From positions 682,001 through 746,000 of the forward strand of contig NZ_QHKL01000003.1 of NCBI RefSeq assembly GCF_003947415.1: 64,000 bases of DNA, given 5' to 3'. The translations under genes were made by a program, and so were the position numbers. Source of the DNA: Amycolatopsis sp. WAC 01376 (lineage in GTDB: Bacteria > Actinomycetota > Actinomycetes > Mycobacteriales > Pseudonocardiaceae). Each line of letters begins with the position of its first letter. Position 1 is the stretch's first letter. Below the pieces are notes generated by a model that was not told the origin of the DNA, did not search any database, and was given only the letters and a program-made list of their open reading frames with translations. Positions 8,353-61,649 of this stretch are shown piece after piece.

Positions 8353-8413
8353 GAAGTACGTGAAGGCCCCCTTCCTGTACCTAGGCGCAAGGATGGGGTC
8401 CTTCATGTACTTG
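8353..8413. repeat. Family A palindrome A1
   Basis: Arms AAGTACGTGAAGGCCCC and GGGGTCCTTCATGTACTT pair with a few mismatches around a loop containing GTACC and GGCGCAAGG. The loop is almost identical to that of A11 at 61183-61239, more than 50 kb away. It lies just after the RNase AS stop in a convergent gap. Terminator-like. Confidence 0.75.
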
Positions 8414-8481
8414 GGCTGGCCTTCACGTGCGGCGCTTGTGACTGGTGCGGCTGCTGGGACTGGAGTGGCGGTCCAGAGTCC

Positions 8482-8528
8482 GTGAAGGCCTCCTTCACTA
8501 CCCTCAAGGTAGGGAAGGAGGCCCTCAC
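8482..8528. repeat. Family A palindrome A2
   Basis: GTGAAGGCCTCCTTCACTAC and GTAGGGAAGGAGGCCCTCAC form a long stem with two mismatches and a short loop. The left arm alone is self-complementary (GAAGG-CCTCCTTC). Second of three elements in the 353-bp convergent gap 8343-8695, which otherwise holds only a single half-arm of family C type (GCGAAG-like, about 8572-8593). Confidence 0.75.
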
Positions 8529-8626
8529 TACGAATGGGCCTGACGCAAAGGACGCCATCCCCGCGTGCCATGCGACGAAAGCTCCCTTCGCGGCTTAAGC
8601 CCCTGGCCTCCCACCCCGCCGCGCCA

Positions 8627-8681
8627 TGCAAGGAACGGTCCTTTCATGGCAAATTTTGCAAGTAAAGGACCGTTCATTGCA
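8627..8681. repeat. Family A palindrome A3
   Basis: Arms TGCAAGGAACGGTCCTTT and AAAGGACCGTTCATTGCA pair around GCAAATTTTGC. This is a slightly decayed relative of the perfect copies at 54095 and 57059. It ends 14 bases before the DAHP synthase stop codon (minus strand), so it probably terminates that gene. Confidence 0.78.
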
Positions 8682-8695
8682 GCCGCCGGGATCCG

Positions 8696-9772
8696 TCAGC
8701 GGCGCGAGTCCACCGCCTTCGCGAGCGTGTCCAGCAGTTCCGCGGTCGTCTCCCAGCCGAGGCAGGCGTCCGTGATCGACTGCCCGTAGGTCAGCGACGA
8801 AGCCGAGCCCAGCGTCAGGTCCTGCCGGCCCGCCACCAGGAAGCTTTCCAGCATCAGCCCCGCGATGCCCCGCTCACCGGCGCCGATCCGCCCGGCGAGT
8901 TCGCGGACGACCGAAGCCTGGCGCACGTGGTCCTTGGCGCTGTTGCCGTGGCTCGCGTCGATGATCACGCGCTCCGGCAGCCCGGACTTCGCGAGCCGCG
9001 CCAGCGTGTCCGCCACTGTCGCGGCGTCGTAGTTCGGACCGGCGGAGCTGCCGCGCAGGATCACGTGACAGTCCTCGTTGCCCGCGGTGGTGATCAGCGC
9101 GGCGAGCCCGTCGGGGTTGATCCCGGCGAAGACGTGGCTCGCGCCGGCCGCGCGGGTGGCGTCGACGGCGACCCGGACGTCGCCCTCGGTCGAGTTCTTG
9201 ATCCCGACCGGCATCGACAGCGCGCTGCACAGCTGCCGGTGCACCTGGCTCGCCGCGGTCCGCGCGCCGATGGAACCCCAGGTCACGGTGTCGGAGATGA
9301 ACTGCGGGGTGATCGGGTCGAGGAATTCGCAGCCGACCGGCAGCCCGAGCGCCGAGATGTCGAGCAGCAGTTTGCGCGCCATCCGGAGACCGTGGTTGAC
9401 CTCGTAGGTGCCGTCGAGGCCGGGGTCGTTGATCAGGCCCTTCCAGCCGAGCGTGGTCCGCGGCTTCTCGAAGTAGACGCGCATGACGATGTGCAGGTCG
9501 CGGCGGTGTTCTTCGGCCTTGGCGGCGAGGCGGCGGGCGTAGTCGAGCGCGGCGTCCGTGTCGTGCACCGAGCAGGGCCCGACGACGACGAGGAGCCGGT
9601 CGTCCCGGCCGTCGAGGATGTCGACGGCCGAGGCCCGCCCGGCTAGGACGGTATCGGCGATTTCCGCCGTCATCGGATGTTCGTGCCGCAGCATCGCGGG
9701 CGACAGCAGCGGGTCGATGGCCGCCGTGCGGTGCCCGTCGAGGGCGATCAGGGTGTCAGCGGAGGGAGACAT
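8696..9772 (-). CDS. aroF: Class I 3-deoxy-7-phosphoheptulonate (DAHP) synthase
   Basis: A 358-residue class I DAHP synthase, first enzyme of the shikimate pathway (phosphoenolpyruvate plus erythrose 4-phosphate). Family blocks: VVVGPCSVHD, MRVYFEKPRTTLGWKG, GSIGARTAASQVHR, GIKNSTEGD, ILRGSS and IIDASHGNSAKD. The start at 9772 follows a GAAAGGAA site; a longer in-frame reading runs into the leader region and is not supported. Unlike the class II enzyme of M. tuberculosis, this is the type used by E. coli and by AroF of Corynebacterium. Feedback sensitivity (Tyr or Phe) cannot be read. Expression is probably controlled by the upstream aromatic leader peptide. Confidence 0.92.
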   Translation of the reverse strand: MSPSADTLIALDGHRTAAIDPLLSPAMLRHEHPMTAEIADTVLAGRASAVDILDGRDDRLLVVVGPCSVHDTDAALDYARRLAAKAEEHRRDLHIVMRVYFEKPRTTLGWKGLINDPGLDGTYEVNHGLRMARKLLLDISALGLPVGCEFLDPITPQFISDTVTWGSIGARTAASQVHRQLCSALSMPVGIKNSTEGDVRVAVDATRAAGASHVFAGINPDGLAALITTAGNEDCHVILRGSSAGPNYDAATVADTLARLAKSGLPERVIIDASHGNSAKDHVRQASVVRELAGRIGAGERGIAGLMLESFLVAGRQDLTLGSASSLTYGQSITDACLGWETTAELLDTLAKAVDSRR

Positions 9773-9773
9773 C

Positions 9774-9812
9774 GCGGGTCTGGTTCCTTTCGAAAGGGAT
9801 ACCGACCCGCGG
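9774..9812 (-). promoter_or_regulatory. Hairpin sequestering the DAHP synthase ribosome site
   Basis: On the transcript, CGCGGGTC pairs with GACCCGCG directly before the ATG, with an inner CCTTTCGAAAGG hairpin whose 3' half is the GAAAGG ribosome site. Together with the leader peptide this could block translation when the leader ribosome does not stall. Pairing is read directly; the mechanism is inferred. Confidence 0.5.
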
Positions 9813-9819
9813 GAACACG

Positions 9820-9844
9820 CCGAGCCGGTGTGATTCCGGCTCGG
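9820..9844 (-). terminator. Attenuator hairpin after the leader peptide
   Basis: CCGAGCCGG and CCGGCTCGG form a nine-base-pair GC stem with a seven-base loop, starting nine bases after the leader stop codon. It is a candidate attenuator stem in the 5' region of the DAHP synthase transcript. No clear U-tract follows, as usual in high-GC actinobacteria. Confidence 0.55.
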
Positions 9845-9852
9845 GGTGGAGG

Positions 9853-9918
9853 TCAGCGCAGGTTCACGCCGCCGTGCCCACCCGGGGCCGGCTTCGTAAA
9901 CCAGAAATAGCGCTGCAC
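9853..9918 (-). CDS. Aromatic leader peptide of the DAHP synthase gene
   Basis: A 21-residue ORF reading (M)QRYFWFTKPAPGGHGGVNLR. Codons 4-7 are Tyr-Phe-Trp-Phe, four consecutive aromatic residues, just upstream of the first gene of aromatic amino acid synthesis. The GTG start at 9918 is six bases after TAGCTT, a leaderless-type -10. A GC hairpin and a hairpin over the downstream ribosome site follow. Ribosome stalling at the aromatic codons would couple enzyme synthesis to charged tRNA levels. Corynebacterium glutamicum has a comparable leader before its aroF. Too short for routine gene finders. Confidence 0.75.
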   Translation of the reverse strand: MQRYFWFTKPAPGGHGGVNLR

Positions 9919-9924
9919 GGCGCC

Positions 9925-9930
9925 AAGCTA
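9925..9930 (-). promoter_or_regulatory. Leaderless-type -10 (TAGCTT) of the aro leader
   Basis: TAGCTT on the minus strand is followed by GGCGCC and the leader GTG, which matches the TANNNT-N6-RTG pattern seen at several genes in this window. No clear -35 is visible. Confidence 0.45.
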
Positions 9931-10054
9931 GCACATCGCGGACGTGGACCGATTCCCGAGGTGGTCCGCCCTGCACCGATCCAGAGAACTCCCGCTACGC
10001 TGGCGGCGGGACATGTGACTGTCATCTCTACGGAACACAAGACGGAGGCTTCTC

Positions 10055-11080
10055 ATGCGTGTCGGTGTGCTGACCGGCGGTGGCGACTGCCCGGGGCTCA
10101 ACGCGGTGATCCGCGCTGTGGTGCGCAAGGGCATCGAGGTACACGGCTGGGACATCGTCGGGTTCCGCAACGGCTGGAACGGTCCCCTCACCGGGGACAG
10201 CCGCCCGCTCGGCCTGAACGACGTCGAGGACATCCTGACCCGCGGCGGCACGATCCTGCGTTCGTCGCGGACCAACCCGTACAAGGTCGAGGGCGGGGTC
10301 GACAAGATCAAGGCCGTGCTCGCCGAGCAGCAGGTCGACGCGCTGATCGCGATCGGCGGCGAAGACACCCTCGGCGTCGCGAAGCGGCTCACGGACGACG
10401 GTATCGGCGTCGTCGGGGTGCCCAAGACGATCGACAACGACCTCGGCGCCACCGACTACACGTTCGGCTTCGACACGGCTGTCTCGATCGCCACCGAGGC
10501 CATCGACCGGCTGCACACCACGGCCGAGTCGCACCACCGCGCCCTCGTCGTCGAGGTCATGGGCCGTCACGCGGGCTGGATCGCGCTGCACTCCGGTCTC
10601 GCCGGGGGCGCGAGCGTGATCCTGGTGCCGGAGCGGCACTTCAGCGTCGACCAGGTCGTCTCGTGGGTCGAGCGCCGCTTCGAGAAGGAGTACGCGCCGA
10701 TCATCGTGGTCGCCGAGGGCGCGCTGCCCGAGGGCGGCGAGGAGAAGCTGCTGACCGGTGAGAAGGACGCCTTCGGGCATGTCCGGCTCGGCGGCATCGG
10801 CACCTGGCTGGCCGACGAGATCGCCGCCCGCACCGGCAAGGAGTCCCGTGCGGTCGTGCTCGGGCACGTCCAGCGCGGCGGCACCCCGACGGCGTACGAC
10901 CGCGTGCTCGCCACCCGGTTCGGGCTCAACGCCGTCGACGCCGTCGCCGACGGTGATTTCGGCGTGATGACCGCGCTGCGCGGCACCGACATCGTCCGCG
11001 TCAAGCTCTCCGAGGCGACCGCCGAGCTGAAGACCGTCCCGGTCGAGCGGTACGAAGAGGCCGAGGTCTTCTTCGGCTGA
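10055..11080 (+). CDS. pfkA: 6-phosphofructokinase, residues of the pyrophosphate-dependent type
   Basis: A 341-residue group A phosphofructokinase that phosphorylates fructose 6-phosphate. GVLTGGGDCPGLNAV opens the protein, VPKTIDNDL carries the catalytic Asp, and EVMGRHAGWIALHSG binds the sugar phosphate. The phosphoryl-donor residues are Asp104 (GGEDT) and Lys124 (VPKTIDND). Asp at 104 with Lys at 124 is the signature of PPi-dependent enzymes such as that of Amycolatopsis methanolica, while ATP enzymes have Gly104. A clear ACGGAGG ribosome site precedes the ATG. A candidate -10, TACGCT, lies at 9996-10001. A strong hairpin (11095-11136) follows the stop. Confidence 0.93.
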   Translation: MRVGVLTGGGDCPGLNAVIRAVVRKGIEVHGWDIVGFRNGWNGPLTGDSRPLGLNDVEDILTRGGTILRSSRTNPYKVEGGVDKIKAVLAEQQVDALIAIGGEDTLGVAKRLTDDGIGVVGVPKTIDNDLGATDYTFGFDTAVSIATEAIDRLHTTAESHHRALVVEVMGRHAGWIALHSGLAGGASVILVPERHFSVDQVVSWVERRFEKEYAPIIVVAEGALPEGGEEKLLTGEKDAFGHVRLGGIGTWLADEIAARTGKESRAVVLGHVQRGGTPTAYDRVLATRFGLNAVDAVADGDFGVMTALRGTDIVRVKLSEATAELKTVPVERYEEAEVFFG

Positions 11081-11094
11081 GCCGTGTTTCAGGA

Positions 11095-11136
11095 GAAGGC
11101 CCCTTACTTTGTGCTGAGCTCGGGTAAGGGGCCTTC
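11095..11136 (+). terminator. Terminator of pfkA (family A type stem)
   Basis: GAAGGCCCCTTAC (11095-11107) pairs perfectly with GTAAGGGGCCTTC (11124-11136) around a 16-base loop, 14 bases after the pfkA stop. The GAAGGCCCCTT core is that of the family A palindromes, but the loop is longer and unpaired. Confidence 0.8.
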
Positions 11137-11213
11137 GCTTTCCTTGCGGCGCCTCCATCTCGGCGAGTTGAATCGGCCGCCTGGGGGATCTGGGTGGAAG
11201 GGCGGCGGTTCTC

Positions 11214-12725
11214 ATGGCGGGTGCGGGATCCAGCAGGCGCGAGTTCCTGAGATGGCTGGCCGCCGGCGGGACCGGGGTGGCGCTCGCCGGGCTGCTGCCC
11301 GGTACAGCCGCCGCGGACACGGTCGAGATCGTCGTCATCGACCGGGTCACGCTGATCGACGGCACGGGTTCGGCGCCGCGGCGTGACGTCTCGGTCGTGC
11401 TCGCCGGCGACCGGATCGCCTGGGTCGGCGCCTCCGGCCAGGTTCCGGAAACCGGTGGCGCCCGGGTGATCGACGGCCGCGGCAAGTACCTCATCCCCGG
11501 GCTCTGGGACATGCACACCCACGGCGCGGACCTGGAAGAGATCGTCCCGCCGCTGCACCTCGTCCACGGCGTCACGGGCGCCCGTGAGATGTGGGGGTAC
11601 GCGGAGAACCGCGCGACCAGGGACAAGATCGAACGCGGCGAGCTGCTCGGCCCGCGGTTCGTCCTGGCGAGCGGGATCGTCGACGGGCCGGTCACGCTCC
11701 TTGGCCCGCCGGTGCTCCAGGTGACGACGGCGGCCGAGGCGCGGGCCGCCGTCCGCGCGGAGAAGGCCGCGGGCGCCGAGTTCGTGAAGACCTACTCCTA
11801 CCTCGGGTCCGACGCCGTGCGAGCGATCGCGGACGAGGCGCGCCACCAGGGCCTGAGGTTCTCCGGGCATTGGCCGTACAAGCTGTCGCACCGCGAGGCG
11901 AGCGACCTCGGCCAGCACAGCTTCGAGCATTTCTTCGGGGTGTCCGTCCACTGTTCGTCCCGGCGCGACGAGATCCTCGGCAGGCTGAAAACGACGCCGT
12001 ACGACCCAGCGGCTCCGCGTGCCTTCTTCAACCTCGCGCGGCAACTGGAGTTCGAATCGGTCACCACGTACGACCCCGGAGTGGCGCGGGCCTACTTCGG
12101 CGGGCTGCGGTGCAACGGCACCTGGCACTCGCCGACGCTGACGATCAACCGGGTGGTCACCCAGCCCGCCGAAACCCACCAGCAGGACCCCCGGCTGAAA
12201 TACGTCCCCGCGGACCTGCGCGAGAGCTGGGTCAAGGGCATCGAATTGTTCGCGCCGAAGACGCCGTCGGAGATCGCCCTTCAGGAGCGGTACTACCAGG
12301 AGACGCTGCGGCTGGTCGGCGTCGCGCACGAAGCGGGCGTCGGGCTCATCGGCGGCACCGACTGCCTCAACCCGTACACCTTCCCCGGCAGCGGACTGCA
12401 CGAGGAGCTCGGCTTCCTGGTCGAGGCCGGGCTTTCGCCGGTGCGGGCGTTGAAGACCGTCACCGGCGACGCCGCGAAGTTCCTCGGCAGGGAAAGGACT
12501 TCGGGCACCGTCGCGGCGGGGAAGGAGGCGGATCTCGTGCTGCTGGACGCGAACCCGGCCGCCGACATCCGCAACGTCGCGAAGATCGACACCGTCATCA
12601 CCCGCGGCCGCGTGCTCGACAGGGCTGAGCGAGGGCGGATGCTCGCCGCCGTCGAGGCCGCCGCGAACCGGCCCGCGACGAGTCCCCGGATCCGGGCCCT
12701 CGCCCGGCGGGGTTGTTGCTGCTGA
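11214..12725 (+). CDS. Tat-exported amidohydrolase
   Basis: A 503-residue metal-dependent hydrolase of the amidohydrolase superfamily (imidazolonepropionase/prolidase-like branch). The N-terminus SSRREFLRWLAAGGTG is a twin-arginine signal followed by a hydrophobic stretch and an Ala-rich cleavage region, so it is exported folded. Metal-ligand motifs: GLWDMHTHG, an active-site Lys in EFVKTYSY, SGHWP and GGTDCLNP. The C-terminal KEADLVLLDANP is typical of the family. The substrate is unknown. The protein ends in three consecutive cysteines, which is odd. The ATG at 11214 is used; the gene stands alone, with a convergent VOC gene after it. Confidence 0.82.
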   Translation: MAGAGSSRREFLRWLAAGGTGVALAGLLPGTAAADTVEIVVIDRVTLIDGTGSAPRRDVSVVLAGDRIAWVGASGQVPETGGARVIDGRGKYLIPGLWDMHTHGADLEEIVPPLHLVHGVTGAREMWGYAENRATRDKIERGELLGPRFVLASGIVDGPVTLLGPPVLQVTTAAEARAAVRAEKAAGAEFVKTYSYLGSDAVRAIADEARHQGLRFSGHWPYKLSHREASDLGQHSFEHFFGVSVHCSSRRDEILGRLKTTPYDPAAPRAFFNLARQLEFESVTTYDPGVARAYFGGLRCNGTWHSPTLTINRVVTQPAETHQQDPRLKYVPADLRESWVKGIELFAPKTPSEIALQERYYQETLRLVGVAHEAGVGLIGGTDCLNPYTFPGSGLHEELGFLVEAGLSPVRALKTVTGDAAKFLGRERTSGTVAAGKEADLVLLDANPAADIRNVAKIDTVITRGRVLDRAERGRMLAAVEAAANRPATSPRIRALARRGCCC

Positions 12726-12729
12726 GGTG

Positions 12730-13167
12730 TCAGCCGAGCTTCTCGGCCAGCTCGATGATGATCCCGTCGGGGCCGCGAAGGTAGCAGAGCCGAAAGGTGT
12801 CCTCGTAGTTCACGACTTCGCCCACGAGCGTGCCTCCGTGGGGCCGCACCCGGTCGAGGACGCCTTCGATGTCGTCGACCTGGAAGGCGAGGTGGCGCAG
12901 ACCGAGCGTGTTGGCCGGAGCGTGCGAGTCGCCGGAGTGGGACTCGGGGGTGAGGTACTGGATGAGCTCGAGCCGCCCGTCGCCGCCGGGGACGCGCACC
13001 ATCGCGATCTCCGATTTGGCCTGCCCGACCGCGGTGATGCGGTCCGCCAGGTCGCTCTCCATCGTCATCTTGCCTTCCAGTTCGAGGCCGAACTCGACGA
13101 AGAACGCGACGGCGGCCGTGAGGTCGCTGACGATGACGCCGACGTGGTCCAGCTGCCGGATGCCCAT
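12730..13167 (-). CDS. VOC-fold protein (glyoxalase/methylmalonyl-CoA epimerase-like)
   Basis: A 145-residue vicinal-oxygen-chelate protein. It has two beta-alpha-beta-beta-beta repeats: MGIRQLDHVGVIVSDLTAAV opens the first with a metal His, and GLRHLAFQVDDIEGVLDRV the second. IELIQYL-like and GIIIELAE segments supply the Glu ligands. The layout resembles methylmalonyl-CoA epimerases and glyoxalases, but the substrate is uncertain. GAGGAG precedes the ATG at 13167; a longer reading upstream lacks a ribosome site. It lies 71 bases downstream of the ammonia-lyase gene in the same direction and may be in its operon. Confidence 0.78.
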   Translation of the reverse strand: MGIRQLDHVGVIVSDLTAAVAFFVEFGLELEGKMTMESDLADRITAVGQAKSEIAMVRVPGGDGRLELIQYLTPESHSGDSHAPANTLGLRHLAFQVDDIEGVLDRVRPHGGTLVGEVVNYEDTFRLCYLRGPDGIIIELAEKLG

Positions 13168-13238
13168 GGTGATCTCCTCGCTGTGGTGTGTGCTGCCCCG
13201 GGGACGACGCCGTCCGGCGGTTCTCGACATCGGAGGAG

Positions 13239-14681
13239 TCAGATGAGCGAGAAGGTGTCCAAAAGCGAGACGGCGCGCGCGATGTCCTCGGTGAGTGGCC
13301 GGTCCTCGACGCTCGGATCGAGCACGGCGGCGGCGGTCTCGTAGGCGTCCCGCGCGGGCAGGGAGACGAGTTCGGCCTTCCGCATCCGCAGCGCCCGGAC
13401 GGCCGCGACCAGCTCACACGCCAGGACCTGTTGGTAGGCCGTCCCGGCCGCGGTCGCCGCCCGCGCGGCCTGGGTGGAGAAGCTCGCGTGGTCTTCGATC
13501 CCGCGCGAGACGACGGCGGTGCCCAGCGTCGCCGGGAGCGCGGCCTGCCGGAGTTCGGTGAGCGCGTCGTGGGCGACGTACTCCAGGATCATCACGCCCG
13601 AACTGCCCGACGGCCCGGCCGCGAGGAACGGCCGCAGCCCGGTGAACTCCGGTTCCACCAGGTCGCCGAGGCGGGCCACCGACAGCTCCGCGACCTGGTG
13701 GACGGTCGCCCGCACCTGGTCGAGCGCGGTCGAGACGTACGCGGTGTGGAAATGCGCGTGGTGGTAGGCGTCCTGGTGCACCGTCGAGATCATCGGGTTC
13801 TCGGTGCTGGCGTTGATCTCCACCGCGAGCACGTCGCGCAGATAGTGGATCGCGTCCAGCGCCGGCCCCTGAACCTGCGGGAAAGCGCGGAGCCCGAACG
13901 GGTCCTGGATGCGCCTGCCGGGTTTGGGCGTGCCCTCCATCCCGAGCAGTCGCCGCATCTCCGCCGCGCACGCGACCTGCCCGGCGTGCGGACGCGCTTC
14001 GTGCACAGGAGTCGCGTACGCCTCCGGGTTCCCGTCGAGCGCGATGTAGGTCAGTGCCGCGACCACGTGACTCGCCCGCGTCAGCGTGTCGAGCCGCATC
14101 GCCGCGAGCGTCGCTTCGGCCAGGGTGGCGGCGTTGCTGCTCATGAACGCGAGCGCGTCACCGGCCTGCACGGGTACCGGCGGCACACCGCCGGTCAGCC
14201 ACGGCCGTTCGCCGGTGAGGGCGAGCGCGGTCTCCGCGAGCGGGGCGAGGTCGCCGGTGCCGATCGCGCCGAGCCGGTGCACCAGCGGCAGCGACCCGGT
14301 CCGCACCGCGGCGGCCAGCGCCCCGATCAGCTCCGGGCTGAGCCCGGACCGTCCGGCCAGCAGCTGGTTGAGCCGGATCAGCATCATCCCCCTGGTCTGG
14401 GCGGGGGACATGACATCGCCGCTGCCGCCGGCGTGACTGCGCAGCAGCCGCAGCCCGTGATCCGGCGACTCGCCTTCGCCGACCGGATCCTCCTTGTTGG
14501 CGCCGACGCCGGTGGTGCGGCCGTAGACGATCCGCCGCGTGCTCAGCTCCTCGGCGAGTTTCCACGCGCTTTCGGCGCCGCGCAGCGCGGCGATGGAAAC
14601 GTCAATGCCCAGCGGCCCCTCGGTGCCCGCGGCGGTCACGACGTCCGCGCAGCGCAGGGTCCGGCCGTCGACCCGGATCAC
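13239..14681 (-). CDS. Aromatic amino acid ammonia-lyase family protein with altered MIO triad
   Basis: A 480-residue member of the histidine/phenylalanine/tyrosine ammonia-lyase family. Conserved parts include YGRTTGVG (active-site Tyr53), GDLAPLAE, STENPMI and GIEDHASF with its Glu. The Ala-Ser-Gly triad that cyclises to the MIO cofactor is Gly131-Thr132-Gly133, and the catalytic Tyr of QDPYSLR is Phe252. A normal MIO-dependent lyase activity is therefore doubtful. The GTG at 14681 has an AAAGGAGG site eight bases upstream; the frame stays open further up but would run through the globin gene. It forms a run with the VOC and truncated haemoglobin genes. Confidence 0.8.
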   Translation of the reverse strand: MIRVDGRTLRCADVVTAAGTEGPLGIDVSIAALRGAESAWKLAEELSTRRIVYGRTTGVGANKEDPVGEGESPDHGLRLLRSHAGGSGDVMSPAQTRGMMLIRLNQLLAGRSGLSPELIGALAAAVRTGSLPLVHRLGAIGTGDLAPLAETALALTGERPWLTGGVPPVPVQAGDALAFMSSNAATLAEATLAAMRLDTLTRASHVVAALTYIALDGNPEAYATPVHEARPHAGQVACAAEMRRLLGMEGTPKPGRRIQDPFGLRAFPQVQGPALDAIHYLRDVLAVEINASTENPMISTVHQDAYHHAHFHTAYVSTALDQVRATVHQVAELSVARLGDLVEPEFTGLRPFLAAGPSGSSGVMILEYVAHDALTELRQAALPATLGTAVVSRGIEDHASFSTQAARAATAAGTAYQQVLACELVAAVRALRMRKAELVSLPARDAYETAAAVLDPSVEDRPLTEDIARAVSLLDTFSLI

Positions 14682-14719
14682 GGCGGCCTCCTTTCCCGAC
14701 CGCCCCACTATGACCGCAC

Positions 14720-15190
14720 TCAGTCCGACGGCGGCTGCCAGGGCGGGCGGTTGCCCCAGTCCCACTTCGGCATCGGCTCGGGCACGGTGACCTCGCGGCC
14801 GGGCTGGGAGAACATCACCGCGAGCCTGCTGCCCCATTCGACGTAGGCGGCGAACGCGGAGCGGAACTCGGGGTCGGCGGGCAGCCCTGCCTCGTCGGCG
14901 GCGTCGAAGAGCAGGTTCACCCAACGGCGGCGCTGCTCTTCGGTGATGGCGCGACCGAGATGCCGTCCGACCATGTGCCGGTGACCGCCGTGGTCGTGAC
15001 TGTAGGTCTCGGGGCCGCCGAACACCTCGGCGAGCCAGACCGCCACGTGCTCGGGATGGCCGGGGTCCATCTGGCGGAAGACGGGCTCCAGCAACGGGTC
15101 CTTCAGCACGTGGCCGTAGAAGACGGCCGTCAGCCGTCGCAAGGCGTCCAGCCCGCCCGCCCATTCGTACAACGTCGGCGTCTCGGTCAC
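14720..15190 (-). CDS. Group II-type truncated haemoglobin
   Basis: A 156-residue globin of the truncated (2-over-2) class. YEWAGGLDALRRLTAVFY at the N-terminus holds the B-helix Tyr, PGHPEHVAVWLAEVFGGP the E-helix and loop, and HGGHRHMVGRHLG the proximal His region; RWVNLL carries the Trp of group II proteins. Such haemoglobins bind O2 or NO and often protect against nitrosative stress. GTG start at 15190 with GGGAGGA upstream. The C-terminus has a Trp/Pro-rich extension (WDWGNRPPWQ). It diverges from an HxlR regulator and precedes the ammonia-lyase-like gene on the same strand. Confidence 0.87.
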   Translation of the reverse strand: MTETPTLYEWAGGLDALRRLTAVFYGHVLKDPLLEPVFRQMDPGHPEHVAVWLAEVFGGPETYSHDHGGHRHMVGRHLGRAITEEQRRRWVNLLFDAADEAGLPADPEFRSAFAAYVEWGSRLAVMFSQPGREVTVPEPMPKWDWGNRPPWQPPSD

Positions 15191-15295
15191 GTAGGGTCCT
15201 CCCAGCGGCGATGATCTCCCGGTCGGGCAAGGCAACCATCCTCCGGCCGCTCCGGACAACCGCTTACTTTTCGGTGCGTACCAACGGGAGTGGCG

Positions 15296-15637
15296 ATGAA
15301 GCGGTACCACTGCGCGGTCGAGCTCGCCGTCGACGTCATCGGCGGCAAGTGGAAGCCGGTGATCCTCTCGCATCTGAAGGAAGGGGTGCATCGGTACGGC
15401 GAACTGCGGCGCCGGATGCCGGGCGTCAGCGAGAAGATGCTGACCCAGCACCTGCGCGAACTGGAGGCGGACGGCCTCGTGCTCCGCGAGAGCCGGGAAG
15501 GCCGGGTGCCGCACGTCGAGTACCGGCTCACCGAGGAAGGGGAGCGGTTACGCCCCGCACTCCAGGCGCTCTACGACTGGGGGACGCGGCGCGCGGCCGA
15601 CCGCGGAATCCCGTTCGAGCCGTTACCTATTCACTGA
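15296..15637 (+). CDS. HxlR-family transcriptional regulator
   Basis: A 113-residue winged-helix repressor of the HxlR/MarR-like family. It opens MKRYHCAVELAVDVIGGKW, the hallmark CxxExxxxxxGGKW motif with a redox-capable Cys near the N-terminus, then KPVILSHLKEG and the recognition helix SEKMLTQHLRELEADGLV. HxlR proteins often sense electrophiles or oxidants through that Cys. It diverges from the truncated haemoglobin, ammonia-lyase and VOC genes and probably regulates them. I chose the ATG at 15296 over the GTG six bases upstream because of its spacing to GGGAG. Its 3' end overlaps the convergent ArsR gene by seven bases. Confidence 0.87.
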   Translation: MKRYHCAVELAVDVIGGKWKPVILSHLKEGVHRYGELRRRMPGVSEKMLTQHLRELEADGLVLRESREGRVPHVEYRLTEEGERLRPALQALYDWGTRRAADRGIPFEPLPIH

Positions 15638-15939: not shown

Positions 15940-16018
15940 CCGGGAAATGTGCCCCGCGCGGCATATTTCCGTCAAGGAATGTTCGAAAATGTCCATCCGA
16001 AAGTCGCGGTCTGAACCA

Positions 16019-16047
16019 TTGACGAAGTGGTCTAGTCCACTTAATTT
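16019..16047 (+). promoter_or_regulatory. Chitinase promoter with embedded DasR-type operator
   Basis: TTGACG (16019-16024) and TAATTT (16042-16047) are separated by exactly 17 bases. The spacer is filled by AGTGGTCTAGTCCACT (16026-16041), which matches the DasR-responsive element of streptomycetes (AGTGGTCTAGACCACT-like) with one difference. Binding there would block RNA polymerase directly. DasR is the GntR repressor of chitin and N-acetylglucosamine use, released by glucosamine 6-phosphate. Confidence 0.75.
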
Positions 16048-17339: not shown

Positions 17340-17394
17340 GCGCGTGAAGGCCCCCTTCCCTCGGCTCAGCCGAGGGAAGGGGGCCTTCACGCGC
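17340..17394. repeat. Family A palindrome A5 (perfect, 27-bp arms)
   Basis: Perfect inverted repeat with a single central base: left arm GCGCGTGAAGGCCCCCTTCC then CTCGGCT; right arm is its exact complement. The inner stem uses CTCGGCT/AGCCGAG where other copies use different sequences, so pairing is kept while sequence changes. It lies 13 bases after the chitinase stop: probable terminator. Confidence 0.85.
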
Positions 17395-19653: not shown

Positions 19654-19700
19654 GTGAAGGCCTCCTTCCCTACCTTCAAAGTAGGGAAGGAGGCCTTCAC
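19654..19700. repeat. Family A palindrome A6
   Basis: GTGAAGGCCTCCTTCCCTAC (19654-19673) and its exact complement (19681-19700) form a 20-bp perfect stem with a seven-base loop, 29 bases after the pyk stop. Probable terminator of pyk. Confidence 0.85.
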
Positions 19701-22435: not shown

Positions 22436-22485
22436 TCGACCCCTTACGCCGCCCGAGCAGGGGATAGGCCGGCGTAAGGGGTCGA
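22436..22485 (+). terminator. Terminator of the XRE-DUF397 operon
   Basis: TCGACCCCTTACGCC (22436-22450) and GGCGTAAGGGGTCGA (22471-22485) form a perfect 15-bp stem with a 20-base loop, four bases after the DUF397 stop. Confidence 0.8.
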
Positions 22486-25888: not shown

Positions 25889-25952
25889 CGCGTTTAGTCC
25901 TCTGAATGCGGTTCTTGCCCGCGCAACTACCGCATTCAGAGGACGAAATGCG
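25889..25952. repeat. Family B double palindrome (convergent gap)
   Basis: GCGTTTAGTCCTCTGAATGC plus GGT pairs with ACCGCATTCAGAGGAC plus GAAATGCG, loop containing GCCCGCGCAACT. The loop is nearly the same as in the 4354 copy (GCACGCGCAACT). It starts two bases after the LAL stop and ends five bases before the stop of the convergent dehydrogenase gene. Confidence 0.8.
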
Positions 25953-35116: not shown

Positions 35117-35173
35117 ATGTCATGAAAGGGTCGTTCAGGACAAAAAATGTCCTGAACGACCCTTTCATGACAT
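35117..35173. repeat. Family A palindrome A7 (26-bp arms)
   Basis: ATGTCATGAAAGGGTCGTTC plus AGGACA (35117-35142) is exactly complementary to 35148-35173, with an AAAAA loop. It lies 26 bases after the transglycosylase stop. The inner stem (AGGACA/TGTCCT) differs completely from other copies but still pairs. Confidence 0.85.
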
Positions 35174-37580: not shown

Positions 37581-38150
37581 ATGGTCACGGCCGATCCGGC
37601 CCGCCCCATGCGCGCGGACGCGCGGCGCAACTACGAGCGCATCGTGGCCGTGGCGAAGGAGGCTTTCACCGCCGACGGCGTGGACGTGCCCGCCGACGAC
37701 ATCGCCAAACGCGCCGGGGTCGGCGCGGGCACGCTGTACCGGCACTTCCCGACGCGCGACAAACTGATCGAGGCCGTCTACCGCGACGAGATCGACGGAT
37801 TGGCGCAGCAGGCCTACGACCTGCTCGACGAGTTGCCACCGGGCAAGGCGCTCGAGACGTGGCTGGCCACGCACGTCATCTACGTGGTCGAGAAGCACGG
37901 GCTCGCGATGACACTGAAGGCGTCCGTCGACGCGGGCTCCGAAGTCTTCGGCTGGTGTCAGTCGCGGTTGCGGGCCGCCGCCGACACGATCGTGAAGGCG
38001 GCGCAGGACGAGGGCGCGCTCAGGGCCGACGTCACCGGCGTCGACATCCTGCGGCTCGGCCACGGCCTGGGTTCGGCGGCGAGCAAGGCTTCGGAGGAGG
38101 ACACGAAGCGGCTTCTCGCGATCGTGCTGGACGGCCTCCGGACGCCATGA
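37581..38150 (+). CDS. TetR-family repressor of the divergent MFS exporter
   Basis: A 189-residue TetR regulator. YERIVAVAKEAFTADGVDVP and GVGAGTLYRHFPTRDKLIEA form the DNA-binding domain. The ligand domain has the TetR_C_33-like layout (LETWLATHVIYVVEKHGLAM). ATG 37581 follows GAGGAGG. The stop codon TGA (38148-38150) lies within the left arm of a family A palindrome, so the protein ends LRTP only because of the repeat. Confidence 0.87.
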   Translation: MVTADPARPMRADARRNYERIVAVAKEAFTADGVDVPADDIAKRAGVGAGTLYRHFPTRDKLIEAVYRDEIDGLAQQAYDLLDELPPGKALETWLATHVIYVVEKHGLAMTLKASVDAGSEVFGWCQSRLRAAADTIVKAAQDEGALRADVTGVDILRLGHGLGSAASKASEEDTKRLLAIVLDGLRTP

Positions 38151-38196
38151 ACGGTCCGTTCCTGGCAAATTTTGCAAGGAACGGACCGTTCATGGC
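38144..38196. repeat. Family A palindrome A8 (contains the tetR stop codon)
   Basis: GCCATGAACGGTCCGTTCCT and its complement flank GGCAAATTTTGCA. Arms are near-perfect over 26 bp. The TetR stop TGA is the ATGA of the left arm. Convergent gap with the symporter gene. Confidence 0.85.
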
Positions 38197-38279
38197 GCGC
38201 GTCAGGGGGTTCGGCGCGTTCGCTTGTCGAGCCCGGTCGCCGTCTGTGCCCAGCCTGCCCAGCGACCGACGTCCGCGTT

Positions 38280-38326
38280 GCGAAAGCCACTTTCGCAACC
38301 TTCAACGTCGCGAAAGTGGCTTTCGC
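38280..38326. repeat. Family C double palindrome
   Basis: GCGAAAGCCACTTTCGC (38280-38296) and GCGAAAGTGGCTTTCGC (38310-38326) are exact complements with a 13-base spacer. Each arm alone is also a hairpin (GCGAAAG-CTTTCGC). It lies between A8 and the symporter stop. Half-arms of the same type occur near 8575 and 19883. Confidence 0.8.
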
Positions 38327-54091: not shown

Positions 54092-54094
54092 CGC

Positions 54095-54151
54095 GCGCTA
54101 TGAAAGGTCCTTTCCTTGCAAATTTTGCAAGGAAAGGACCTTTCATAGCGC
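54095..54151. repeat. Family A palindrome A9 (perfect, 28-bp arms)
   Basis: GCGCTATGAAAGGTCCTTTC then CTTGCAAA, one central T, and the exact complement. It starts four bases after the stop of the F420 gene and ends 10 bases before the kstR stop. Its near-identical sister A10 lies at 57059, on the other side of kstR-fadE34. Confidence 0.9.
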
Positions 54152-54161
54152 TTGGGCAGGG

Positions 54162-54809
54162 TCAGACGTTCTTGTCCAGCAGCAGGTGCACCGACAGTTC
54201 GAGCCGGTTCGCGACGTCGGCCGCCGAAGCGCGCCGCGTCACCCACGCGACCAGGTTCGCCATCCAGACGTCGGCGATGACGTGGAAGATGTCGCGATCG
54301 GCCTCGGTCGGGTCCTCGATGCCCATGGCCTTGGCGAACATGTTCTCCATCAGCCGTCCGACCTGTTCGACCTCGGCGGCCGCGGTCGTGTCGGCGAACA
54401 TGAACGCACGGACCATGGCTTCGGTCAGGTGTGGGTCCCGCTGCATCAGCCGGGTGTTGCGGCCGAGGACGAACATCAGCCGCTCGCTCGGGGTTTCGCC
54501 GGGGATGGCCGCGCGGTCGAGTTTCTCCTGCGCGCGTTCGAATTCCCTGGCCAGCCCGGAAACCAGCAGGTGGATCTTCGACGGGAAATAGCGGTACAGC
54601 GTGCCGAGCGCGACGTCCGCCTTCTCGGCGACCGCCCGCATCTGGACCGCGTCGTACCCGCCTTTCGCGGCGAGGGTCAGGGTCGCGTCGATGATGCGGC
54701 GCCGCCGGTCGCGTTGCGCCGCGGAGCCCAGTTCCTCGCCGCCCAGCGCGGAGAGACCGTTGCCGCTTCGCGCCTTCGCGCTCGTGGGCGCCTTGGCCTT
54801 CCCTGGCAT
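54162..54809 (-). CDS. kstR: KstR: TetR-family repressor of cholesterol/steroid catabolism
   Basis: A 215-residue TetR regulator closely resembling M. tuberculosis KstR: RDRRRRIIDATLTLAAKGGY, DAVQMRAVAEKADVALGTLY, RYFPSKIHLLVSGLAREFER, LTEAMVRAFMFADTTAAAEV and IADVWMANLVAWVTRRASA match recognisable KstR segments. KstR binds 3-oxo-cholest-4-enoyl-CoA type inducers and represses steroid-degradation genes. It diverges from fadE34, as in mycobacteria (Rv3574/Rv3573c), with an exact KstR box between. ATG 54809 follows AAGGGGGA; the ATG at 54827 is less well placed. Confidence 0.92.
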   Translation of the reverse strand: MPGKAKAPTSAKARSGNGLSALGGEELGSAAQRDRRRRIIDATLTLAAKGGYDAVQMRAVAEKADVALGTLYRYFPSKIHLLVSGLAREFERAQEKLDRAAIPGETPSERLMFVLGRNTRLMQRDPHLTEAMVRAFMFADTTAAAEVEQVGRLMENMFAKAMGIEDPTEADRDIFHVIADVWMANLVAWVTRRASAADVANRLELSVHLLLDKNV

Positions 54810-54909
54810 CGCCACGTCCCCCTTCATCGAACGGAACTTGTTCCACTTTCCCCGCGTAGCGTACCTAAGCGGACGAACTGTTCAAGACGTGACCCACTGG
54901 GCAAGAAAC

Positions 54910-54923
54910 TGTAACACGTTCTA
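54910..54923. promoter_or_regulatory. KstR box
   Basis: TGTAACACGTTCTA matches the KstR operator consensus TNNAACNNGTTNNA exactly. It is 101 bases from the kstR start and 36 from the fadE34 GTG. A weaker copy, CGGAACTTGTTCCA (54832-54845), lies close to the kstR start and differs at the first base. Confidence 0.82.
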
Positions 54924-54958
54924 CACTCGCGGGTAGGTCCGAGCAGGAGGTCTCACCC

Positions 54959-57034
54959 GTGTCGATCGCGCTCACCGAGGAACAGGCGGCGCTGGCCGCG
55001 TCGATCCGGGCCTGGGCGGCTTCCGCCCGCCCCGTCGACGCCGTCCGAAATGGCCGGATCACCGAGCCACCAGCAGGACTGGCGGAGCTCGGCCTGTTCG
55101 GCGTGGCGATTCCCGAAGACGTCGGCGGCGCCGGCGGTACGGTCACCGACCTGAGCGCCGGGCTCGCCGAAGCCGCCGAAGCACTCGTGCCGGGGCCTGT
55201 CCTCGGGACGGCGTTGGGCGGCGCGCTGCTCGCGACGGTTCCCCAAGCCGCCAAGGAGATCCTGCCCGGTCTCGCGGACGGGACCGAACGGATGGCGGTG
55301 GTGCTGGGCCGGGGTTTCCGCATCTCGGGCTCGGTCGTCGACGGCGAGTCGGGACCGGCTCTCGACGTTCACCCGTCGGCATGGACGTTGGTCTCCGACG
55401 GCGACGTCTCCGCGCTCATTCCACCCGGGACGTCCGGAATGGACATCGACTACTGCGAGCCCTTCGACGTGTCCCGGCCCGTCGGCCGTATCCGATGCGC
55501 GAAGGTGCGGCCCGAAGCGGTTTTCGAGGCTCTGCCGGTGGATTCCTACGCCGCCACTCTCGGTGCCGCCGAAGCCGCGGGGATCGCCCGATGGTGTCTT
55601 CGGACCGCCGTCGAGTACGCGCAGGTGCGAGAGCAGTTCGGGCGTCCCATCGGGTCGTTCCAGGCGATCAAGCATCTGTGCGCGGAAATGCTGTGCCGGG
55701 CCGAAGCCACCGACGCGCTCGCGTGGGACGCGGCGAGAGCGGCCGAAGACCCGGCGCAGCACGCCCTCGCGGCCGCCACGGCGGCGGCTTACGCACTCGA
55801 CGCGGCCGTGGCCAACGCGAAGGACTGCATCCAGGTCCTCGGCGGCATCGGCTTCACCTGGGAGCATGACGCGCACTTCTACTTGCGGCGCGCCGTAGCG
55901 CTGCGGCAATGGCTGGGCGGTTCCGCCCGCTGGCGACGTCGTGCCGCCGGACTCGCGCTGCGCGGCGACCGCCGGACATTGAGTGTCGACGTCGGCGAAG
56001 ACGCCGGACTCCGTGACCTGGTAAGCGAAATCGCCGCTTTACCCGAGCAGTCACAGCGCGTCGCGCTGGCCGATTCGGGACTGTTGGCCCCGCATTGGCC
56101 CGCGCCGTACGGCAGAGGCGCGACCGCCGCCGAGCAACTGCGGATCGACACCGCCCTCGCCGGTGCCGGCATCCGTCGTCCCGACCTGGTCATCGGCGCC
56201 TGGGCGGTCCCGACACTGCTGGAACACGGCTCCGAGGAACAACGCGAACGGTTCGCCGCGCCCACTTTGCGCGGCGAGATCACCTGGTGTCAGCTGTTCA
56301 GCGAGCCCGAGGCGGGCTCGGATCTCGCGTCGCTCCGCACGACGGCCCGCCGCGTCGACGGCGGCTGGCTGCTCAACGGCCAGAAGGTGTGGACCTCGCT
56401 CGCCCGCGAAGCCGACTGGGCGATCTGCCTGGCGCGAACCGACCCGGAAGCCCCGAAACACCAGGGGATCACCTACTTCCTCGTCGACATGACCGCGGGC
56501 GGGATCAGTACGCGTCCGCTGCGTGAGATCACCGGCGACGCCGTCTTCAACGAGGTGTTCCTCGACGACGTCTTCGTCCCGGACGACATGGTGGTCGGGG
56601 AGGTCGACGGCGGCTGGCGGCTCGCGCGGACGACGCTGGCCAACGAGCGGGTGGCCCTCGGGAGCGGATCCGCGGTGGGGGAGGGGGTCGAAAACCTGCT
56701 CGCCACGCTGGGCGATGACGCCGATCGGGAACGGCTCGGTGCGCTGATCGCCGACGGCAGCGCGTGTTCGGTCCTGGACCTGCGGGCCACGCTGCGGCGG
56801 CTCGACGGCCAGGATCCGGGCGCCGAGTCGAGTGTGCGCAAACTGCTGGGAGTGCGGCATCGGCAGGCGGTGGCGGAGTTCGCGCTGGAGGCTTTGGCGG
56901 AGAACGCGCTCGTCGCCGGTGACCCCGCGCAGCACGAGTTCCTGCTGACGCGATGCCTCAGTATCGCGGGCGGTACGACGCAGGTGCTGCTGTCGCTGAC
57001 GGCCGAGCGGTTGCTGGGGCTGCCTCGGTCCTGA
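54959..57034 (+). CDS. fadE34: FadE34-like fused acyl-CoA dehydrogenase (steroid side chain)
   Basis: A 691-residue protein made of two acyl-CoA dehydrogenase units. Unit 1 (about 1-345) has LFGVAIPEDVGGAGGTVTDL, YAQVREQFGRPIGSFQAIKH and QVLGGIGFTWEHDAHFYLRR; unit 2 (about 350-691) has SEPEAGSDLASLRTTARR, INGQKVW-like NGQKVWTSLAREADW and IAGGTTQVLLSLTAERLLG. This fused architecture and the divergent kstR are those of FadE34 (ChsE3), which dehydrogenates the CoA ester of a steroid side chain (five-carbon stage) in cholesterol catabolism. GTG 54959 lies eight bases after GAGCAGGAGG. Confidence 0.9.
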   Translation: MSIALTEEQAALAASIRAWAASARPVDAVRNGRITEPPAGLAELGLFGVAIPEDVGGAGGTVTDLSAGLAEAAEALVPGPVLGTALGGALLATVPQAAKEILPGLADGTERMAVVLGRGFRISGSVVDGESGPALDVHPSAWTLVSDGDVSALIPPGTSGMDIDYCEPFDVSRPVGRIRCAKVRPEAVFEALPVDSYAATLGAAEAAGIARWCLRTAVEYAQVREQFGRPIGSFQAIKHLCAEMLCRAEATDALAWDAARAAEDPAQHALAAATAAAYALDAAVANAKDCIQVLGGIGFTWEHDAHFYLRRAVALRQWLGGSARWRRRAAGLALRGDRRTLSVDVGEDAGLRDLVSEIAALPEQSQRVALADSGLLAPHWPAPYGRGATAAEQLRIDTALAGAGIRRPDLVIGAWAVPTLLEHGSEEQRERFAAPTLRGEITWCQLFSEPEAGSDLASLRTTARRVDGGWLLNGQKVWTSLAREADWAICLARTDPEAPKHQGITYFLVDMTAGGISTRPLREITGDAVFNEVFLDDVFVPDDMVVGEVDGGWRLARTTLANERVALGSGSAVGEGVENLLATLGDDADRERLGALIADGSACSVLDLRATLRRLDGQDPGAESSVRKLLGVRHRQAVAEFALEALAENALVAGDPAQHEFLLTRCLSIAGGTTQVLLSLTAERLLGLPRS

Positions 57035-57058
57035 AAGTTCCGGTCACGGCACTTTGTC

Positions 57059-57115
57059 GTGCTATGAACGGTCCTTTCCTTGCAAAATTTGCAAGGAAAG
57101 GACCGTTCATAGCAC
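57059..57115. repeat. Family A palindrome A10 (perfect, 28-bp arms)
   Basis: GTGCTATGAACGGTCCTTTC then CTTGCAAA, one central A, and the exact complement. It differs from A9 by a paired change (AAAGG to AACGG with matching change in the other arm). It lies 24 bases after the fadE34 stop. Confidence 0.9.
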
Positions 57116-57145
57116 CGCCGCCCGCCGGCTGTCGGTCCCGTGCTC

Positions 57146-57151
57146 TAACGT
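57146..57151 (+). promoter_or_regulatory. Leaderless-type -10 (TAACGT) of helZ
   Basis: TAACGT is followed by seven bases and GTG at 57159. This is the reason for choosing that start over the GTG at 57150, which overlaps the hexamer. Confidence 0.4.
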
Positions 57152-57158
57152 GCGGGTC

Positions 57159-59914
<2,756 letters not shown>

Positions 59915-59915
<1 letters not shown>

Positions 59916-61099
59916 TGCCCAGCGCGACAGGGCGGAAGCGGCGCACCTTCGGCAACACGTGGTGGGGCAAGGCTTGGGTCGAAGCCCTGGAGGAGCGCGC
60001 CAAGCTCGATCCGAACAGGCTGCCGCGCGGGCGCACGTACGCGCGCAAAGGCACGGTCAGCAAACTCGCGGTCGGCGCGGGCGAGGTGACCGCGTGGGTA
60101 CAGGGCAGCCGGGCGGTGCCGTACCGGGTGACCATCCGCATGCGGGCGTTCACCGAGGCACAGTGGGAGAGCCTGCTCCGCATGGTCGGTTCCCGTCTCG
60201 GGCACGTCGCGGCCCTCCTCGACGGCGAACTGCCCGGCGAGCTGGCCGAGGACGCGCGGGCCGCCGGCGCGGATCTGCTCCCCGGCCCCGGCGATCTGCG
60301 GCCGAAATGCTCCTGTCCCGACAGTGCGAACCCGTGCAAACATGTCGCCGCGGTGTACTACCTGGTCGCGGACGAGGTCGACACCGATCCGTTCGCGCTG
60401 TTCCTGCTCAGAGGCAGGCCGAGGGAGGCCGTGCTCGCGGAACTGCGGTCCCGCCGTGCTCCCGCGAGCGAACCGGGTAAACGGGTGCGTGCCCCCGCCG
60501 CACCCGGGGTGGATCCGAAACGTGCCTACACCCGGCGGATCGCCGCGCTCCCGCCGCGACCGGCCGTTCCCGGCATGGTCGGACCGCCCGCGGTCCTCGA
60601 CCTCGACCCGCCGCACCGCACGGGCTGGAGCGGCGACATGTTCGTCGAACTGGCCGCCGATGCCGCCGCGCGGGCCTGGGAACTGCTGGTGATGGGGCCC
60701 GAGCGCGAAGTGGAGCTGACGTTCGAGGAGGACCTTGCCCGGCGTGCGGCGGCCGGCGATCCTCACGTGGTCGCCGAACTCGCCGAGGCCGCGGGAGTCC
60801 CGGTGCGGGATCTGGCCGTCTGGGCACAGGCCTGGCGCGAGGCGGGCCGGGGCGGGATGGCGGTGGTGCGGGAGCCCTGGCGGCCGGGGCAGGCACCGCT
60901 CGCGCAGGCCACAGCTGATCTCGCCGAATCGGGGTTGCCGGGAACGCCGAAGACCTGGCGGAACCGGATCACCCAGGGAGACCTGCAGCTGCGCTACGGC
61001 CGTGACGAACGGTGGTACCGCTTCGTGCGCGACGGCGAGGGCTGGCGGGTCGACGGCCCGCCGTCCGCGCGGCCGACCGACGTGATCTACCCACCCTGA
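59915..61099 (+). CDS. SWIM zinc-finger protein, HelZ partner
   Basis: A 394-residue protein with a SWIM zinc finger, CSCPDSANPCKHVAAVYY at residues 131-148 (CxCx7CxH). RRTFGNTWWGKAWVEALEER at the start is conserved in partners of bacterial SNF2 proteins. The rest is helical. Such proteins probably bind DNA or protein for the adjacent helicase. One-base overlap with helZ (TGATG). Followed by a long repeat-filled convergent gap. Confidence 0.9.
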
Positions 61100-61182
61100 C
61101 CACGAGCAACCTGGGGAGAGCCTGGGTCGCGGTGGTCGTGAGTGGCGATTCCTCTTAGGTACCTGTGGCGCTTCTTGCGTGA

Positions 61183-61239
61183 AGTACATGAAGGACCCCT
61201 TGCTGTACCTGGGCGCAAGGATGGGGTCCTTCATGTACT
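61183..61239. repeat. Family A palindrome A11
   Basis: AGTACATGAAGGACCCC (61183-61199) is exactly complementary to GGGGTCCTTCATGTACT (61223-61239). The 23-base loop shares CTGTACCT and GGCGCAAGGAT with A1 at 8353. Confidence 0.82.
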
Positions 61240-61264
61240 GCGGGAAGGGGTGAAGGTCGAGTTT

Positions 61265-61300
61265 CCTCGGCTGAGCCGAGGGAAGGGGGCCTTCACGCGC
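61265..61300. repeat. Family A fragment A12
   Basis: CCTCGGCTGAGCCGAGG (61265-61281) is a palindrome followed by GAAGGGGGCCTTCACGCGC, the right arm of A5 (17340). The left outer arm is degenerate, so this is a decayed copy. Confidence 0.65.
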
Positions 61301-61368
61301 TGTCGCTGTAGTGCCGAGGCTCCAGGGGGCGTTCCTGCCCGCCCGCAGCCTCGGCCCGGCCCGGCATG

Positions 61369-61419
61369 CCGTGAAGGGCTCCTTCCCTACTCTCAGGGTA
61401 GGGAAGGAGGCCCTCACGG
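61369..61419. repeat. Family A palindrome A13
   Basis: CCGTGAAGGGCTCCTTCCCT and AGGGAAGGAGGCCCTCACGG pair with one or two mismatches, loop ACTCTCAGGGT. Close to A6 and A2 in sequence. Confidence 0.75.
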
Positions 61420-61535
61420 ACTTGCGATCCCGGCCCACCCGTCGTAGGCACTTAGAACACTGTTGGCTAACCCGAATCGCCACTCGCGACCACCCTGAAC
61501 GACGCTTTTCGGCACCCTGGTCGCTCGAAGTACGT

Positions 61536-61548
61536 GAAGGGGCCCTTC
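61536..61548. repeat. Family A single arm A14
   Basis: GAAGGGGCCCTTC is a 13-base self-complementary arm preceded by AAGTACGT as in A1. No second arm is found. Confidence 0.55.
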
Positions 61549-61596
61549 GCGCGCCATCGTTGAGCCTGGTGGGACTACTGGGCTACAGCCGTGTGT

Positions 61597-61649
61597 TCCG
61601 TGAAGGCCTCCTTGAGGGACCCAGAGTCCCTCAAGGAGGCCTTCACGGA
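61597..61649. repeat. Family A palindrome A15 (contains the lipase-gene stop codon)
   Basis: TCCGTGAAGGCCTCCTTGAG plus GGAC (61597-61620) is exactly complementary to 61626-61649, with a five-base loop CCAGA. The TGA stop of the minus-strand hydrolase gene is the TGA of its outer arm. Confidence 0.85.

Follow-up and report, generated by a model that had tools for sequence, protein, structure and literature searches.

What are the long palindromes that recur behind stop codons in Amycolatopsis, and how do they come to share a design while differing in sequence? The question is raised by a 64,000-nucleotide stretch of Amycolatopsis sp. WAC 01376 (contig NZ_QHKL01000003.1, positions 682,001 to 746,000; hereafter the window). 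An original prediction made from its letters listed fifteen copies of an intergenic palindrome, family A, with self-complementary outer arms and freely varying inner stems, and took them for selected RNA or cruciform structures, probably terminators or sites of 3'-end processing, spread by some copying process. The observation is partly confirmed and proves larger in extent than was reported; its interpretation is partly supported. We favor, with a probability of roughly 0.55, the explanation that several families of short non-autonomous mobile palindromic repeats have settled behind stop codons, similar to repetitive extragenic palindromes (REP), bacterial interspersed mosaic elements (BIME) and miniature inverted-repeat transposable elements (MITE) but without a REP-associated tyrosine transposase (RAYT).

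Repeat families at gene ends

Hairpins were collected from a 1.664-Mb sample, 18% of the 9.07-Mb genome, at a score of at least 14. Genes were called with a home-made caller, and those of the relatives with a model trained on this genome. The comparisons use partly named relatives and partly genomes designated here by G numbers. Among named genomes, the best matches to the pyruvate kinase of the window come from Amycolatopsis species.

The sample contains 290 long hairpins. Among gaps of at least 40 bp, those with such a hairpin are 107 of 158 convergent, 122 of 498 co-directional and 9 of 240 divergent ones. Shared 10-mers group 220 of them into five families of 126, 46, 23, 20 and 5 elements, the largest of which includes family A; 13 of the remaining hairpins fall into tiny groups and 57 are unique. 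By extrapolation, the whole genome would hold about 1,200 family elements. Common design and spread by some copying process, as originally proposed, are supported. Among the nine hairpins in divergent gaps are AT-rich symmetric sequences that resemble regulator operators more than repeats (C 108423, D 172363).

The proposed location at gene 3' ends and avoidance of divergent gaps are borne out: 110 family elements lie in convergent, 102 in co-directional and 4 in divergent gaps (46, 114 and 56 expected by length) and 4 within genes, 220 in all. Over all hairpins in convergent and co-directional gaps the median distance from the stop codon is 19 nt. In co-directional gaps of at least 300 bp, 15 of 42 family elements are at most 60 nt from the stop codon, compared to 6.8 expected under uniform placing with the final 100 nt ahead of the next gene excluded. 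The stem is free of any mismatch in 120 of the 220 elements. Two relatives show a similar placing, with hairpins in 23/39 convergent, 17/111 co-directional and 1/50 divergent gaps of G042 (380 kb) and in 16/35, 13/103 and 1/61 of G026 (400 kb).

The families are nearly restricted to the genus Amycolatopsis. Of its 80 genomes, 51 have the family A pattern (21 of them with just one to four copies), as do 3 of 10 genomes from the family's other genera and none of 60 from other families; a reversed control pattern gave no matches in any genome group. The 6.9-Mb genome G001 has the most family A matches among the 150 genomes, 470.

Elements of the window

The palindromes of the window are given below with coordinates and strand; (.) marks a feature listed without strand.

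8353..8412 (.), hybrid family A palindrome; outer arms GTACGTGAAGG / CCTTCATGTAC pair, inner halves come from two subtypes
8482..8528 (.), family A palindrome with CTACC inner module
8627..8681 (.), family A palindrome with GCAAATTTTGC inner module
17340..17394 (.), family A palindrome with CTCGGCT inner module; perfect 27-bp stem, stop codon 13 nt before
19654..19700 (.), family A palindrome 3' of the pyruvate kinase gene
35117..35173 (.), family A palindrome with AGGACA inner module; perfect 26-bp stem
38143..38197 (.), family A palindrome between two convergent genes; 8-nt overlap with the upstream gene end
38280..38326 (.), second palindrome between these two genes, arms GCGAAAGCCACTTTCGC; missing from the original list
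54095..54151 (.), family A palindrome; perfect 28-bp stem, in a 70-bp convergent gap used for comparison across relatives
57059..57115 (.), family A palindrome; perfect 28-bp stem, 57-bp element
61134..61491 (.), composite with a family-3 half arm at either boundary (GGTCGTGAGTGGCGATTC ... GAATCGCCACTCGCGACC); contains family A palindromes
61179..61239 (.), hybrid family A palindrome within the composite; outer arms pair, inner halves come from two subtypes
61250..61300 (.), family A palindrome within the composite; left outer arm partly decayed
61369..61419 (.), family A palindrome with CCTACT inner module, within the composite
61535..61548 (.), single family A arm
61597..61649 (.), family A palindrome with GAGGGAC inner module
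4354..4419 (.), family 1 palindrome between convergent genes, arms CGCATTTAGTCCTCT
25889..25952 (.), family 1 palindrome between convergent genes; in relatives the slot has family 1, 3, 4 or no hairpin
11090..11140 (+), ordinary hairpin outside family A, kept by descent in four close named relatives

The single design claimed for fifteen copies holds for the ten that form full hairpins (8482, 8627, 17340, 19654, 35117, 38144, 54095, 57059, 61369 and 61597; scores 15–28). Three more are partial: in those at 8353 and 61183 the outer arms pair around inner halves of two subtypes, and the one at 61265 has a decayed left arm. The copy at 61536 is a lone arm without a full hairpin. The hairpin at 11095 was wrongly pooled with family A; it recurs at this position in every named relative with both flanks matched, 4 of the 13. 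The arm motif given originally, TGAAxGGxCCTTC, has no exact match in the window, and the correct arm is TGAANGGNNCNTTC, with 12 matches against 0.1 expected. The window has 16 hairpins of any kind with a score of at least 12, and two order-1 Markov sequences have 0 and 1. No Rfam family matched within the window at the gathering threshold. Another ordinary conserved hairpin, CCCCTTAC...GTAAGGGG at 22436–22485, has been retained by descent in 10 of the 13 named relatives compared, as judged by eye.

Self-complementary arms, which the original prediction ascribed to the design as a whole, exceed shuffled sequences in three families. Arm stems of at least 5 bp occur in 57%, 26% and 38% of families 0, 1 and 2, respectively (6–9% in shuffles); families 3 and 4 are not above shuffles, and other hairpins hardly so (10% vs 7%). 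Two-level symmetry is therefore a trait of some families, not of all 3'-end hairpins. Inner and outer stems behave as modules, as at the orthologous site B160122, where the outer arm GTCCGTGAAGGCCTCCTT is kept and the raw sequence of the G042 element has a different inner stem.

Several side observations concern other parts of this repertoire. A family 1 variant, TTTAGCCCGCTAAA, is very frequent in G000:C11:1-200000 (L001–L010), with many single copies, some of them within predicted genes, and is absent elsewhere in the sample among the matches listed. In G026 (L231–L242) two different hairpins recur jointly, about 125–410 bp apart with common sequence between them, in the manner of a compound element. 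In the G019 assembly (L193, L262) Ns stand beside adapter-like CTTCCGATCT within palindromes, which may break read assembly there.

Turnover at orthologous slots

Gaps were matched automatically between this genome and G042 (181 gaps; some slots were misjudged where the flank alignment was short, and there may be more such errors), and some slots were read by eye. Co-directional gaps often retain the slot while its sequence changes. Family elements occupy 12 of them in both genomes, 9 and 1 in a single genome and 90 in neither (p 8e-10). Identity of at least 0.85 in the matching gap was seen for 3 of 49 family hairpins, compared to 9 of 15 other hairpins.

The convergent gap behind 54091 was compared in 13 close species, including this one, whose coding flanks are 93–99% identical. 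Eleven of them have palindromes of family 0 or 3 there and two have none; about eight versions occur, three of which are each common to a species pair, and the hairpins of three more distant species are small and dissimilar. At slot 19654 four named relatives have other family A versions, G014 has the same subtype and G008 lacks a hairpin call. The boundaries of family A elements differ between species.

In the gap behind 57034 the 57-bp element (57059) is present at the same place in 13 species, again including this one, and both of its arms change together. In the alignment 90.3% of cells pair, and for 15 of the 27 pairs both sides change; the covariation score is 0.368 (0.133 for shuffles and at most 0.108 when slid). 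Divergence is 0.31 in the element, 0.30 in the 5' gap flank and 0.06 in the 3' flank; 4 of the 13 copies have 7–10 mismatched pairs. Covariation as originally argued, from the varied inner stems of dispersed copies, is not one-site covariation, and pairing inner stems among dispersed hairpins do not prove RNA selection; the two-sided change at this orthologous slot is what stands of the claim.

Joint change of the arms fits the view that perfect pairing is a mutational by-product, replication template switching having copied arm onto arm, with no function and little mobility. The element's divergence, close to that of its 5' flank, points the same way, and so do the inverted ends and half arms, identical over 63 bp, of a transposon described below. 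The view leaves unexplained that unlinked sites share families, that dialects exist, that a slot may be filled or empty and that elements are placed at 3' ends, and we hold it to be improbable.

Family 1 has a dialect. All 59 of its arms here have GAA, GGA, CGA, AAA or GCA as the triplet following TCCTCT, and all 21 arms of G042 have AGT, ACT or GGT. Reading by eye agreed for the 25 listed of 110 G042 copies and for all 12 copies of G019; in G006, four odd arms occur among the 25 copies listed.

Nested elements and an IS4-type transposon

Palindromes are split at the center by inserts, and inner stems have been exchanged under one outer arm at one site. Five composites of 370–463 bp bounded by family-3 half arms were found in the sample, and 61134–61491 is a related copy. 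A genome search with the window composite gave 99 matches, mostly partial, none of which apart from the query itself spans its entire length. A 361-bp element with ends GCTTAAGTTGATCTTGG has an intact central family-3 palindrome in five copies, and in two copies this palindrome is split at its center by a longer insert; in one split copy GTTCTAACG is repeated at both insert junctions.

Thirteen copies of the miniature element were read by eye with both flanks, seven here and six in G019. Two family-3 half arms flank nine of the 13; of the others, one copy has a half arm on one side, one abuts a family A arm and two have no half arm. Direct repeats that may be target-site duplications, again by eye, are an exact 10 bp at L263 and 13 bp with one mismatch at L260 and L261; more were seen at C11, C22 and L264, and the repeats are inverted or unclear at C30b, B779 and L262.

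The 361-bp family-3 element is a miniature derivative that shares its ends with an IS4-type transposon. An intact transposon in G021 (L255) has GCTTAAGTTGATCTTGG ends flanking an open 419-aa frame for an IS4-family transposase (Nterm_IS4 1.9e-22, DDE_Tnp_1 6.7e-8; NF033592 169.7 bits with a cut-off of 115) and lies between two family-3 half arms. Its inverted ends and half arms are identical across 63 bp, the variable part included. If its true ends are CAATG, it measures 1558 bp; the IS4 subgroup is described in excerpts of PMC2266710 as 1400–1650 bp long with ends NAATR, WTW further in and direct repeats of 10–13 bp. Further end letters of L255 match this subgroup only partly, and the 10-mer at its flanks is inverted, not direct. 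The transposase has matches (E at most 0.001) in 17 of 80 genomes; apart from G021 itself, the nearest are in G009 (84%), G044 (80%) and G040 (68%, one stop codon). G001 has six matches to the IS4-type transposase at 34–35% identity.

Terminator and RNA evidence

The strongest rival holds that the palindromes are selected two-way terminators or 3'-end stabilizers without a U-tail, for which any strong hairpin would serve, so that sequence would turn over in a kept slot. Their placing (a median of 19 nt from the stop codon; hairpins in 107 of 158 convergent gaps) and the kept co-directional slots fit it. Terminators without a U-tail are stated for M. tuberculosis and Streptomyces in excerpts of PMC8355165; they resemble the present hairpins in following stop codons and differ in that the Amycolatopsis palindromes form sequence families and are often perfect. 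Shared sequence is not needed by a terminator, yet repeat families exist.

A U-tail is mostly missing. At least four T in the next 8 nt follow 6 of 102 family elements as against 13 of 39 other hairpins (co-directional, score at least 14), a result that held in G042 and G026 (1/35 and 2/6). Gaps with a family element have few U-tailed terminators, which fits this rival, although the differences are not significant: 3/88 convergent gaps with and 6/53 without (p 0.08), and 1/89 and 16/347 co-directional gaps (p 0.22).

Sense-strand mismatches were counted in a wider co-directional set (score at least 10). Here family elements have 30 G-T to 24 A-C (129 elements) and other hairpins 50 to 11 (107 hairpins; Fisher p 0.0025 for the contrast), that is, the family elements show no sense G-U excess in this genome. 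The contrast was not reproduced in G042 and G026, where family elements lean to G-U at 20:8 (p 0.036), which favors an RNA role, and others stand at 10:5. With all data pooled, the ratios are 50:32 (p 0.06) and 60:16 (Fisher p 0.016). Control counts for family elements are 31:29 in convergent gaps, 3:0 in genes and 0:4 in divergent gaps; for other hairpins they are 4:13 (p 0.049, strand arbitrary), 22:16 and 3:3.

The selected RNA terminators of the original prediction are not demonstrated, and the 7–10 mismatched pairs in 4 of 13 copies at slot 57059 and the missing hairpin behind 54091 in 2 of 13 species count against them as well. We regard selection for terminators as a possible but doubtful account of the families as a whole; for family elements a terminator or RNA-stabilizing role is possible.

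Relation to known repeats

In REP repeats, many copies lie downstream of coding regions and inverted pairs give long hairpins (excerpts of PMC3116915, PMC3733652); BIMEs are composites of REPs (excerpt of PMC2817692). The present elements are similar to REPs, REP doublets forming hairpins (REPINs) and BIMEs as short high-copy palindromes between genes, with 220 elements in 1.664 Mb and 4 in genes. They differ in having neither a RAYT nor the tag, and in that several unrelated families use the same slots. A search for RAYT (PF01797) was negative in 48 of 48 Amycolatopsis genomes, this one included, and positive in 3 of 32 other genomes and in 5 of 14 control genomes, E. coli included. A GTAG/CGTC tag at one foot was found in 25 of 220 elements (11%) and at 13.9% of random intergenic sites, hence no enrichment.

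With MITEs they share a non-coding, multicopy nature and inverted ends, which the 361-bp element has in common with the IS4-type transposon; family A differs, at about 45–60 bp, in being almost entirely inverted repeat and in having no known autonomous partner. Insertion sequences (IS) that target REP sequences include ISRm22 of the IS4 family (excerpt of PMC1525189). The transposon described here is likewise an IS4-type element sited in palindromic repeats, with the differences that it lies near the dyad center, in layered nesting, in an actinomycete host and with miniature derivatives. No earlier description of these palindromes was found among the titles and abstract openings of open-licence papers. 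In the text open to a term search, PMC3733652 does not mention Amycolatopsis, Streptomyces or Actinobacteria, and PMC12306157, whose table has three Actinomycetota genomes, does not mention Amycolatopsis.

The DNA uptake sequences of Neisseriaceae come in species-specific dialects and repeat as inverted pairs at gene ends. These are the points of likeness; the uptake sequences differ in having a short unit and an uptake receptor.

Proposed mechanism

Under the explanation that we favor, mobile palindromic repeats without a RAYT, elements would be copied into gene-end slots, in which an insertion would do least harm. Copying between elements and between the two arms would rewrite existing copies, by which these would stay perfect and dialects would arise. 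In family 3 the IS4-type transposon and its miniature derivatives would land at the dyad center. Some copies may work as two-way terminators, either as a by-product or as the reason why slots are retained.

Several observations weigh against this explanation. Kept co-directional slots equally fit selection for a hairpin there, and shared occupancy of convergent gaps with G042 is not above chance (13 in both, 7 and 2 in one, 4 in neither; p 0.35). A search of this genome for the IS4-type transposase gave no match. No transposase is tied to family A, for which a partner was not sought systematically, and the solo-arm search gave no autonomous family A element among the matches listed. Target-site duplications of family A were not seen in the gaps read, a systematic search not being part of this reading. 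The center letters are inverted, not direct, in 3 of 9 nested miniature copies and in the intact transposon; the half arms may belong to the ends of the transposon itself, or arm-to-arm correction may have acted. These inverted centers slightly lower our confidence. One G031 copy among those listed combines both family 1 dialects, and whole-element identity shows the dialect weakly: the mean is 0.74 for six orthologous pairs of family 1, compared to 0.80 among paralogues here, 0.71 among those of G042 and 0.68 in non-orthologous cross pairs. Since orthologues exceed cross pairs, a vertical signal persists and rewriting is partial.

A further-reaching version would make the slots a self-renewing system, in which unrelated families compete for a slot, copies are rewritten into a species dialect with coupled change of the two arms, and nesting by repeated insertion at the center is partly due to an IS4-type transposase that reads symmetry, with no RAYT involved. 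We put it forward tentatively and think it rather unlikely; if true, slots would be two-way gene-end barriers and harmless docking sites for mobile DNA at once.

Least probable, despite symmetric and sequence-conserved arms and 120 of 220 mismatch-free stems, are DNA sites for a chromosome-organizing or regulatory protein, or cruciforms, given that unrelated families interchange in one gap (0 and 3 behind 54091; 1, 3 and 4 behind 25887) and dialects differ among close species.

Significance

It is an open question how short palindromic repeats spread, and how they remain perfect, when they have no dedicated transposase; CGTC repeats, which lack such a transposase (excerpt of PMC3733652), pose it too. 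With the many sequenced species of this genus, orthologous slots can be seen empty, filled, swapped, rewritten or decayed, and an intact transposon has been caught within palindromes. RNA selection, arm-to-arm correction and copying between loci thereby become testable against each other in Amycolatopsis, which bears on gene-end insulation in antibiotic producers.

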